Positions 9,469-19,953 of a stretch of DNA of 28,722 nt are shown here, piece after piece. Source of the stretch: a virus. Within the stretch, counting starts at the first letter, position 1. Each line of letters opens with the position of its first letter. The translations under genes and the position numbers were made by a program. The notes under the pieces were generated by a model. The model worked only from the letters and a program-made list of their open reading frames with translations. It searched no databases and had not been told where the DNA came from. The stretch spans positions 1 through 28,722 of the IMG/VR virus record IMGVR_UViG_3300025759_000498. One strand, given 5' to 3'.

Positions 9469-9583
9469 CGGAAGCGCTATTGGTTTTAGTATTACAGACT
9501 GCAACGAAGTATTAACTTTTGTATCTTTAATATTAGCAATAGCTTTTACTATATATAAATTTATAAAATTTGACAAAAATTAA
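9428..9583 (+). CDS. Small holin-like membrane protein
   Basis: This 51-aa protein begins MNNLKDTVQVGIANGSAIGFS. It has one strong hydrophobic segment at about residues 28-46 (VLTFVSLILAIAFTIYKFI) and a short basic end, FDKN. The polar N-terminal helix, single membrane span and basic tail resemble the tiny holins that I associate with lysis cassettes of flavobacterial phages. The neighbouring DUF5675 protein supports a lysis role. It could instead be another small inner-membrane protein. Confidence 0.6.
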   Translation: MNNLKDTVQVGIANGSAIGFSITDCNEVLTFVSLILAIAFTIYKFIKFDKN

Positions 9584-9586
9584 AAA

Positions 9587-9712
9587 ATGGCTAAAAAGTT
9601 TACTGTTAACTCTTTTAGAGCTACTAGAAAAAAAAGAAAAGGAGTACACTCCAAAAACGCAAGTCGAGGACAAAATGCCTACAAAAAACATTACAGAGGA
9701 CAAGGGCGTTAA
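9587..9712 (+). CDS. Basic 41-aa protein, conserved-looking C-terminal GQGR motif
   Basis: The ATG at 9587 opens a 41-aa frame ending at a TAA at 9710-9712. The product is very basic (SFRATRKKRKGVHSKNASRG, then YKKHYRGQGR). The motif G-V-H-S-K-N-A-S followed by a C-terminal Y-K-K-x-Y-R-G-Q-G-R matches a mini-protein family I recall from Bacteroidota phages, with no known function. It follows the holin stop by 3 bases with an A-rich leader. Its last 38 bases overlap the start of the DUF5675 gene in another frame. If the DUF5675 frame instead starts at TTG 9570, this gene is wholly nested in it. The high charge suggests binding to nucleic acid. Confidence 0.62.
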   Translation: MAKKFTVNSFRATRKKRKGVHSKNASRGQNAYKKHYRGQGR

Positions 9713-10109
9713 TTTACTTATAATTAGAGATACTTTTACGGATAAATCTACTATTGGTAAATTATACCTTAACGGAGAATTATTTTGCGATACTTTAGAG
9801 TTGCCTTATAAAGACAATCAAAGAAGTATATCTAGTATACCAGCTGGAGAATACAAAGTAAACTTAAGACCAGCTAGACAAAGCGCAACTAGAGACTATT
9901 TACACTTAATAGTTGAAGACGTGCCTAACCGTTCTTATATATTATTTCACAGAGGTAACAAACCGTCTCATACTAGAGGTTGTATTCTAGTAGGTCAAAC
10001 TCGTCAACAAGACTTTGTTGGTAACTCTACTTTAGCTATGGATTTACTAATGAAAGAAATAATAAATTTAGGCGGCGAAAACATTAAATTAATAATTAAA
10101 AATCGATAA
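9675..10109 (+). CDS. DUF5675 protein, candidate cell-wall enzyme (lysis cluster)
   Basis: Starting at ATG 9675, this protein is 144 aa. It shows the DUF5675 layout: LLIIRDTFTDKSTIGKLYLNGELFCDTLE, here given in parts (LLIIRDTFTDKSTIG, KLYLNGELFCDTLELP), SIPAGEYKVNLR, and YILFHRGNKPSHTRGCILVG with His92 and Cys103. The H-x-G-N...G-C-I arrangement recalls the active site of L,D-transpeptidase-like (YkuD) folds, so action on peptidoglycan is plausible. With a holin-like gene upstream it may be the phage lysin or an accessory. I see no other recognisable endolysin. The same frame is open upstream to a TTG at 9570, which would add a hydrophobic N-terminal helix but fully overlap the 41-aa protein. 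Confidence 0.72.
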   Translation: MPTKNITEDKGVNLLIIRDTFTDKSTIGKLYLNGELFCDTLELPYKDNQRSISSIPAGEYKVNLRPARQSATRDYLHLIVEDVPNRSYILFHRGNKPSHTRGCILVGQTRQQDFVGNSTLAMDLLMKEIINLGGENIKLIIKNR

Positions 10110-17587: not shown

Positions 17588-17848
17588 ATGAGTACACACG
17601 GAGGTAAAAGAATAGGAGCTGGACGTAAGCCAAAAGCTGAAGAACAAAAGCTAATAGAAAAATTAACACCTTTAAACGACTTAGCTTTAGAGTCATTAAA
17701 AAAAGGTTTAGAGAAAAAAGAACAATGGGCGGTCAAGTTATACTTTGAATATTTTTACGGTCGACCTCAACAAAGAGTAGATGTAACTAGCAACGAAGAA
17801 ACTTTAAATATGCCGCTAATAACATTTATAGATTCTGAAACTGAGTAA
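17588..17848 (+). CDS. terS: Small terminase-like DNA-binding protein
   Basis: This 86-aa protein has a basic N terminus with GGKRIGAGRKPKAEEQKLIE, an AT-hook-like R-K-P-K element common at the start of phage small terminases. A helical core follows (KLTPLNDLALESLKKGLEKK, EQWAVKLYFEYFYGRPQQRV). The Y-F-x-Y-F-Y-G-x-P-Q-Q-R-V-D-V segment matches short terminase small subunits of Bacteroidota phages. It should recognise phage DNA and recruit the large terminase for packaging. It is short compared with typical small subunits and overlaps the large terminase by 8 bases when that gene starts at CTG 17841. Confidence 0.75.
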   Translation: MSTHGGKRIGAGRKPKAEEQKLIEKLTPLNDLALESLKKGLEKKEQWAVKLYFEYFYGRPQQRVDVTSNEETLNMPLITFIDSETE

Positions 17849-19037
17849 AAAATATAATCCGCTATTTGATTCTGATGCTAGATATTTTATAATAACTGGG
17901 GGTCGAGGGTCTGGTAAATCTTTTGCTGCAACTGTATTTCTTACGCTACTTACAATGACCGCAGGAATACGAGTATTGTTTACTAGGTTTACTATGGTAT
18001 CTGCGCACCTATCAATAATACCAGAATTTTTAGAAAAAATAACTTTGTTAGGATATGATAATATATTTAGTGTAAACAAAGCAGAAGTAATAAACACTAA
18101 AAACAATAGCGATATATTATTTAGAGGTATAAAGACTAGCGCTGGTAACCAGACCGCAAGTTTAAAATCTTTACAAGGTATAAGTTGCTGGGTACTTGAC
18201 GAAGCAGAAGAATTAATAGACGAAGACATATTTGATACTATTGATTTAAGTATAAGAGAAAAAGGTATACAAAATAGAATCATACTTATATTAAATCCAG
18301 TAACAAAAGAACACTGGATATATAAAAGGTTTTTTGAAGACAAAGGCGTACAAGCTGGTTTTAACGGCGTTAGAGACAATATATGTTATATACATAGTAC
18401 ATACCTTGACAACAAAGATAATCTGTCTCAGAGCTTCCTAGAGCGTGTAGAGGCTATAAAACATAGGAACTTTAAAAAGTACAAACATAAAATACTTGGG
18501 GGCTGGTTAGACAAAGCAGAAGGAGTAGTCTTTGAAAATTGGTCAATAGGAGAATTTAATCCTGACGGACTACAAACCAGTTGCGGTATGGACTTTGGTT
18601 TTAGTGTTGATCCAGATAGCTTAGTAGAAGTAGCAATAGATAAAAAGAAAAAAATAATATATCTAAAAGAACACTTATACAAGAACGGATTAAAGTCTCA
18701 TCAATTAGCAGAGCTTATATTAGAGAAAGTAGGAGATAAATTAATTATAGGCGATAGCGCAGAACCTAGACTAATAGAGGACTTAAGACATTTAGGAGTA
18801 AATATAAAACCAGTCAAAAAAGGAACTATTGAAAGCGGTATAACTAGAATGTTAGACTACGACATAGTAATAACAAAAGAGTGTATAAATTTAGCTAAAG
18901 AATTAAACAACTATATATACGCAGATAAAGGTTCTAAGTTATTTGTTGACGCTTATAATCACGGAATTGACGCAGTAAGATATAATATAATTTACCATTT
19001 AGATAACCCGAACTTAGGTAGGTATTATGTACAATAA
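17841..19037 (+). CDS. terL: Terminase large subunit, apparent CTG start
   Basis: Taking CTG 17841 as start gives 398 aa. The N-terminal ATPase has Walker A GGRGSGKS (20-27), the region LFTRFTMVSAHLSIIPEF, and Walker B WVLDEAEEL (Asp120, Glu121). The C-terminal nuclease has Asp251 in GMDFGFS, Asp305 in IIGDSAEPR, and Asp370/Asp377 in VDAYNHGIDAVRY, an RNase H-like metal site. It drives DNA into the prohead and cuts it. The first ATG in frame, at 17955, would remove Walker A, so it cannot be the true start. No ATG, GTG or TTG lies between the upstream stop (17829) and Walker A. Only ATT 17832 and CTG 17835 or 17841 remain. CTG-AGT-AAA-AAA gives the expected SKKYNPLF start. A +1 frameshift from the small subunit is an alternative. 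Confidence 0.88.
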   Translation: MSKKYNPLFDSDARYFIITGGRGSGKSFAATVFLTLLTMTAGIRVLFTRFTMVSAHLSIIPEFLEKITLLGYDNIFSVNKAEVINTKNNSDILFRGIKTSAGNQTASLKSLQGISCWVLDEAEELIDEDIFDTIDLSIREKGIQNRIILILNPVTKEHWIYKRFFEDKGVQAGFNGVRDNICYIHSTYLDNKDNLSQSFLERVEAIKHRNFKKYKHKILGGWLDKAEGVVFENWSIGEFNPDGLQTSCGMDFGFSVDPDSLVEVAIDKKKKIIYLKEHLYKNGLKSHQLAELILEKVGDKLIIGDSAEPRLIEDLRHLGVNIKPVKKGTIESGITRMLDYDIVITKECINLAKELNNYIYADKGSKLFVDAYNHGIDAVRYNIIYHLDNPNLGRYYVQ

Positions 19038-19174: not shown

Positions 19175-19771
19175 ATGAAAGTACAAGTTAAACAAAAGGG
19201 CAAAAAAAAGTCCTATAATGTTATAAGTAATTGGTCAGATGTAACATTAGAAAATTGGGCTAAATTAGTTACTATACAAGGATATAGTAAAATAAAAGAG
19301 GCAAAAGAAACGATACTTGCGTTATCTGATATACCAGAAAAAGTATTAAACAAATTAGAAGTATATCATATCGCAGCTATTTTGCAAGGACTTTCTTCTA
19401 TGCAAAAAAACGAAGAAACTTGCTTGAGAGAGATAATAGAAATAGAAGGAGTTGAGTACGGTTTCCACCCTGACCTTGAGCAAATGACTCTCGGAGAATT
19501 TGTTGATTTAGAAACCTACATACAAGACATACAAAATAGTATGCCTGAAATAATGGCTATATTGTTTAGACCCGTTGTAGAAAAAAAAGACAACTATTAT
19601 AATATAGAGGCTTACGACGGTAACATAAAGAAACGGGCTGAGATAATGAAAAAAATACCAGCTGAGAAAGTACAAGATTCTCTGGTTTTTTTTTACAATT
19701 TCGGGTCGATATTATTAACGATTTTGCTATCGTGTTTGACTCAGGACACAAAGGCAACGAACAAGCAATAG
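19175..19771 (+). CDS. Tail assembly chaperone, zero-frame product (gpG-like)
   Basis: This 198-aa protein opens the tail block. It starts with a basic strand (KVQVKQKGKKKSYNVISNWS), then DVTLENWAKLVTIQGYSKIK and a helical body (VLNKLEVYHIAAILQGLSSM, EQMTLGEFVDLETYIQDIQN, MPEIMAILFRPVVEKKDNYY). This is a familiar arrangement for chaperones of Bacteroidota phage tails. Near the end it reaches a run of nine T (19686-19694), where a -1 shift joins the open frame ending at 19953. Without the shift it terminates at a TAG (19769-19771). This is the pattern of lambda G and G-T proteins, which bind the tape measure and deliver tube subunits during tail assembly. Confidence 0.73.
   Translation: MKVQVKQKGKKKSYNVISNWSDVTLENWAKLVTIQGYSKIKEAKETILALSDIPEKVLNKLEVYHIAAILQGLSSMQKNEETCLREIIEIEGVEYGFHPDLEQMTLGEFVDLETYIQDIQNSMPEIMAILFRPVVEKKDNYYNIEAYDGNIKKRAEIMKKIPAEKVQDSLVFFYNFGSILLTILLSCLTQDTKATNKQ
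19687..19693 (+). other. Predicted -1 ribosomal frameshift site in the tail chaperone
   Basis: T TTT TTT lies in the correct phase (zero-frame codons GTT TTT TTT TAC) for tandem slippage by one base. The -1 frame is open from 19666 to the TAA at 19951-19953. Fusion would add 86 residues after residue 173, giving 259 aa. A weak 5-bp stem (CGATA 19707-19711 with TATCG 19728-19732) lies downstream. Confidence 0.65.
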
Positions 19772-19953
19772 GAGATGGAGACTTTGCTAAAAAGTGGAAT
19801 TGGTTTGGAGTAATGTATAGGTTAGCAAATGGTAATATAATTAATTTAAATGAAGTAACAAAAATAAATTTGCTAGAGGCTTTAACTTGGTTAAGCTACG
19901 AAACAGATTTACAAAGTCAAAATAACGTAAAACTAAATAATGTCAGTCAATAA
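19732..19953 (+). CDS. Tail chaperone extension (gpT-like), probably made by -1 frameshift
   Basis: The only standard start in this frame is GTG 19732 (73 aa), but the frame is open from 19666, so it is best read as the second half of a G-T fusion. The sequence contains FAKKWNWFGVMYRLANGNII, LNEVTKINLLEALTWLSYE, and a polar end. The K-K-W-x-W-x-x-x-M-Y-x-L-A-x-G-x-I...V-T-K...L-x-x-L-x-Y-E pattern matches the C-terminal part of tail chaperones in other Bacteroidota phages. This supports a single functional protein. It overlaps the next gene by 14 bases. Confidence 0.68.
   Translation: MFDSGHKGNEQAIGDGDFAKKWNWFGVMYRLANGNIINLNEVTKINLLEALTWLSYETDLQSQNNVKLNNVSQ

Follow-up and report, generated by a model that had tools for sequence, protein, structure and literature searches.

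Where does translation of the large terminase gene (terL) begin in this virus? In the window, the 28,722-nucleotide stretch of viral DNA analysed here, the last in-frame stop codon upstream of terL (TAG, 17829-17831) is followed in the terL frame by ATT CTG AAA CTG AGT AAA AAA TAT AAT CCG CTA TTT. The initial annotation had noted that ATG, GTG and TTG are absent between this TAG and the Walker A motif at 17898, and both the sequence and its translation confirmed this. The only NTG codons ahead of Walker A are CTG 17835 and CTG 17841; the other start candidate is ATT 17832, upstream of both. The first ATG in the terL frame lies at 17955, and a standard ORF finder starts there, giving a protein of 360 amino acids; the loss of Walker A from such a start had been pointed out previously. 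Relative to the putative small terminase gene, terS, which ends across the terL start region (Table 1), terL is read in the +1 frame. Comparison with related phages leads us to propose, with good confidence, that terL in this phage and in a large clade of marine phages is initiated at CTG 17835, inside the last codons of terS, and is plausibly coupled to terS termination.

Table 1. Features of the terS-terL junction; positions are those of the window.
Feature	Position	Strand	Basis
Putative terS, 86 aa, last codons overlap terL start	17588..17848	+	ATG-start ORF directly upstream of terL; stop TAA 17846-17848
Last stop (TAG) in the terL frame before the gene	17829..17831	+	Sequence; stop in same column (codon -21) in 88/161 relatives
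CTG, proposed terL start, read as fMet (M-K-L-S-K-K-Y-N-P-L-F)	17835..17837	+	Column conservation
terL, 400 aa counted from CTG 17835, Terminase_3 + Terminase_3C	17835..19037	+	
Second CTG, most likely an internal Leu codon	17841..17843	+	CTG in 116/161, otherwise CTT/CTA/CTC; first two bases invariant
Walker A motif GGRGSGKS	17898..17921	+	Translation
First in-frame ATG of terL; a start there would delete Walker A	17955..17957	+	

The two genes and their relatives

Judged by its domains, the window gene is a genuine large terminase. The predicted protein matches Pfam Terminase_3 (PF04466, 1.3e-33, above cut-off) over the ATPase domain including Walker A, and Terminase_3C (PF17288, 1.8e-13), so that the C-terminal RNase H-like nuclease domain is present as well. 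By phmmer it matches Sf6 gp2 (4ife, 4.6e-13) from residue 8 of the CTG-started protein, and also the terminase nuclease 2wbn. Both domains and Walker A are shared with the Terminase_3 family of Sf6 gp2-like large terminases, and the start codon alone is unusual. A Pfam search with the upstream ORF gave no match even at E 5, and its sole match was to phrog_38011, a family to which no function is assigned. The name terS, which no family confirms, is one that we infer from the position of the ORF and its GGKRIGAGRKP N-terminus.

The 80 closest viral contigs and further scans yielded 226 distinct terL genes in total, the genome_contigs search contributing only 6 loci. The clade around the window comprises 164 distinct terL genes, 161 of them readable, and these 161 are the basis of the counts given below unless another set is named. 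In the tree, all CTG-bearing terL genes fall into this one clade of 164 (support 0.82; with one sister added to the clade it rises to 0.99). Codons were numbered by counting back from the residue two before the GG of Walker A, so that codon -19 corresponds to 17835 and codon -17 to 17841. No ATG was found before Walker A among the 80 closest viral contigs, nor any in-frame ATG or GTG before Walker A among the 161 readable clade members. In 88 of the 161 there is a stop at -21 and a CTG at -19, without ATG, GTG or TTG between the two.

In relatives outside the clade, at 56-69% identity, an ATG, TTG or GTG precedes the 17835 column by one codon or a few. Among cultured phages the closest relative is Nonlabens phage P12024S, whose terL is annotated as starting at a TTG one codon upstream. 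The sister locus L239, just outside the clade, carries an ATG exactly in the 17835 column and a CTG, as an internal Leu codon, in the 17841 column. The position of the start also drifts from locus to locus, inside the clade or out: in L386 a TTG lies farther upstream, and in the L076 group a TTG lies exactly in the 17835 column, so that the start codon of terL is subject to turnover in the wider family. One contig, L297 (PBGL02000003.1), is filed under a Euryarchaeota MAG and carries an 84% identical terL; it is probably a misbinned phage contig. The hosts of the clade are probably of flavobacterial (Flavobacteriia-like) type, as suggested by its relatives among the phages of Nonlabens, Riemerella and Olleya.

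The choice among candidate start codons

Among the 161 relatives, 134 have CTG in the 17835 column, 6 have TTG and 21 have CCG; CTG or TTG is thus present in 140. The initial annotation had favoured CTG initiation at 17841, where an ATG was expected. The first part of that proposal is supported and the second is not. No clade member has an ATG in the 17841 column, and the ATG of the sister L239 falls at 17835 instead. It is true that the 17841 column is CTG in 116 of the 161, the CCG genes included, and that the first two bases of this codon never change, but the other 45 have CTT, CTA or CTC there and yet have CTG at 17835. The constancy of CT is explained by an internal Leu codon, since sister clades have CTA, CTT, CTC or TTA in this column together with an ATG, TTG or GTG upstream. 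In 40 relatives codon -21 is a stop, codon -19 is CTG and codon -17 is something other than CTG, which makes the -19 CTG in practice the sole NTG between that stop and Walker A; for these loci a start at 17841 is already implausible. We regard initiation at 17841 as improbable, and the terL start is most likely CTG 17835.

The 21 CCG genes form a single subclade, and they make clear that the 17835 column is not indispensable. All 21 keep a TTG two codons upstream, at -21. The terS wobble base overlying this TTG changes 27 times across the clade and not once inside the subclade, where the start looks to have moved two codons upstream. A TTG at -21, and hence a possible start there, also occurs in 34 loci that have the CTG. 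As a general start the upstream TTG was rejected, as it tracks the Val/Ile codon of terS and is conserved only in the CCG subclade. ATT 17832 was likewise rejected; its column contains AAA, GCT, ACA, GAA, ATT, GTT, ATA or GAG in the relatives.

In each of the 161 relatives an NTG stands at codon -19 or codon -21, a pattern that would also be expected if the start were loose, with ribosomes that end terS re-initiating at any nearby NTG (TTG at -22 or -21, CTG or TTG at -19, CTG at -17) and the window using both of its CTG codons. The CCG subclade, with its TTG at -21 plus CTG at -17, would fit such a scheme. However, conservation of the T in the -19 codon persists in genes that also have a TTG or a second CTG, whereas the TTG at -21 comes and goes with the Val/Ile codon of terS, and we consider a loose start unlikely, if less so than a start at 17841. 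An ATG at 17841, as an assembly error or a variant, had been named as a refutation of the unusual start. For a sequencing or assembly error, with A as the true base at 17835 or 17841, we found nothing in favour and see a negligible chance: the same state recurs in independent assemblies, in 134 distinct relatives from many metagenomes, with ATG in none.

Conservation of the 17835 codon within terS

The middle T of CTG 17835 is also the wobble base of a codon in the overlapping putative terS. On a tree of 118 sequences with a total length of 14.5 substitutions per site this T does not change at all, whereas each of 20 terS wobble sites lying upstream changes 8-29 times; the adjoining terS wobble bases, at -2 and +4, show 16 and 15 changes. 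The only other terS wobble base without a change, at +7, is the second base of a conserved terL Leu codon. On the 161-gene tree the T of the 17835 codon changed once, on the branch leading to the CCG subclade. In a set of 119 loci, with CTG in 113 and TTG in 6, the terS codon lying over 17835 encodes Thr (85), Ser (27), Ile (5), Pro (1) or Val (1) and ends in T in 119/119, while Thr codons elsewhere in terS are ACA in 61% and ACT in 34% of cases. The TG of the 17835 codon is conserved beyond the requirement of the overlapping terS. For the C of the codon a single change was counted, a usual figure among terS second-codon positions. What the data show is hence the retention of an NTG rather than a preference for CTG over ATG.

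Two other causes of this conservation were considered and rejected. A conserved internal Leu codon is excluded in genes in which -21 is a stop and -20 cannot serve as a start: the 17835 codon would then lie outside the translated part of the terL frame. A signal at the DNA level, such as a packaging site, does not agree with the flanking wobble bases, which vary freely.

The surroundings of the codon were also compared. Three nucleotides before the start, at -3, 161/161 relatives have a purine and 130 of them an A, which agrees with the preference of Flavobacterium johnsoniae, where an A at -3 promotes initiation (PMC6847099). A Lys codon, AAA 17850-17852, follows soon after the start, in columns +15 to +17 counted from the C of CTG 17835. 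It is AAA in 118/118 sequences, without a wobble change, and in 146/161 of the wider set. This constancy might mean that A-rich sequence is required downstream of the start codon.

Possible coupling to terS, known systems and other observations

Initiation at CTG 17835 would require that fMet-tRNA read this codon as Met, giving a TerL of 400 amino acids that begins MKLSKKYNPLF. Ribosomes finishing terS would be the likely source of terL initiation, by coupled re-initiation. In the window the proposed terL start precedes the terS stop by 11 nt, and in the relatives by 8, 11 or 14 nt; such an overlap suits termination-reinitiation. Overlapping stop and start regions, as found for terS and terL, are one feature of translationally coupled pairs, and coupling of terL to terS termination is plausible on this arrangement. 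Termination-reinitiation has been documented in bacteria, with a downstream start that overlaps the upstream stop region (PMC6728339); that work concerns ATGA and TGATG overlaps, whereas here the coupling is putative and a CTG lies 8-14 nt before the stop.

The +1 frame of terL and its overlap with the terS stop also led the initial annotation to raise a programmed +1 ribosomal frameshift, at GAG-TAA, that would yield a TerS-TerL fusion. The comparison speaks against such a shift. The stop itself (TAA or TAG), the P-site codon, the base that follows and the offset all vary among the relatives, and eight different codons (GAA, GAG, TCT, CAG, CCT, AAA, AAG and CAA) occupy the P site before the terS stop, leaving no conserved shift site. 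No stable structure lies nearby, the local RNA at the overlap being not unusually structured (fold z-score +0.80). In addition, a frameshift gives no reason why the TG of 17835 should be held at a wobble site. We consider it highly improbable, more so than a start at 17841, and retain initiation at CTG 17835, plausibly coupled to terS, as the preferred reading.

In E. coli systems CUG is a poor initiator (PMC11497404). This counts against a CTG start, and it makes a low output of TerL, as supposed in the initial annotation, possible. More speculatively, the clade, in Bacteroidota hosts poor in Shine-Dalgarno sequences, might have fixed CUG as a deliberately weak start, such that only ribosomes completing TerS would go on to make TerL and the ratio of motor subunits would be set during translation; we offer this tentatively and think it rather doubtful.

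In prokaryotes CUG starts are very rare. A count quoted in PMC9845219 gives 20 annotated ORFs (0.024%) with such a start across 69 model bacterial genomes, and of 61,358 ancestral AUG starts 2 had switched to CUG (PMC5622118). In Bacteroides phage phiB124-14, whose host is likewise a member of the Bacteroidota, ORF10 was predicted to have a CTG start (PMC3338817). That case is a single prediction in one genome, whereas the CTG described here is found in terL, in 134 relatives, with support at the level of the wobble base. Inhavirus terL (Nonlabens phages P12024S/L) resembles the window gene in its 61% identical TerL, its terS-terL overlap and its non-ATG start, but this start, one codon upstream, is TTG, which is recognised as a start in bacteria, where the window clade has CTG. 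A search of the open-licence literature on phage and terminase genes with CTG starts brought up no earlier description of this case. Rare CUG initiation is thus already known, and what appears to be new is a clade-wide instance in terL with conservation at the wobble level.

Of the 134 CTG-bearing relatives, 94 lack an ATG, GTG or TTG before Walker A. Gene callers limited to these three codons would miss the Walker A motif of TerL, a standard marker gene, in all 94. For bacteria without Shine-Dalgarno sequences, the clade also provides a clean natural setting in which to test CUG initiation and coupling.

Two further loci in the window deserve mention. The ORF at 9570-10109 (179 aa) has TTG as its first start, with the next ATG about 35 codons in, and is possibly a second non-ATG gene of this genome. 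In the 19175-19953 region, the gene that follows terL (198 aa) ends overlapping an ORF in the -1 frame that runs to 19953. A run of nine T residues (19686-19694, GGTTTTTTTTTAC) could be a -1 slip site, as in the G/GT pairs of tail assembly chaperones. It is kept in 12 of the 15 loci examined, the window included; in L006, L008 and L014 the longest ORF extends beyond the point of the T run, possibly in the second frame.
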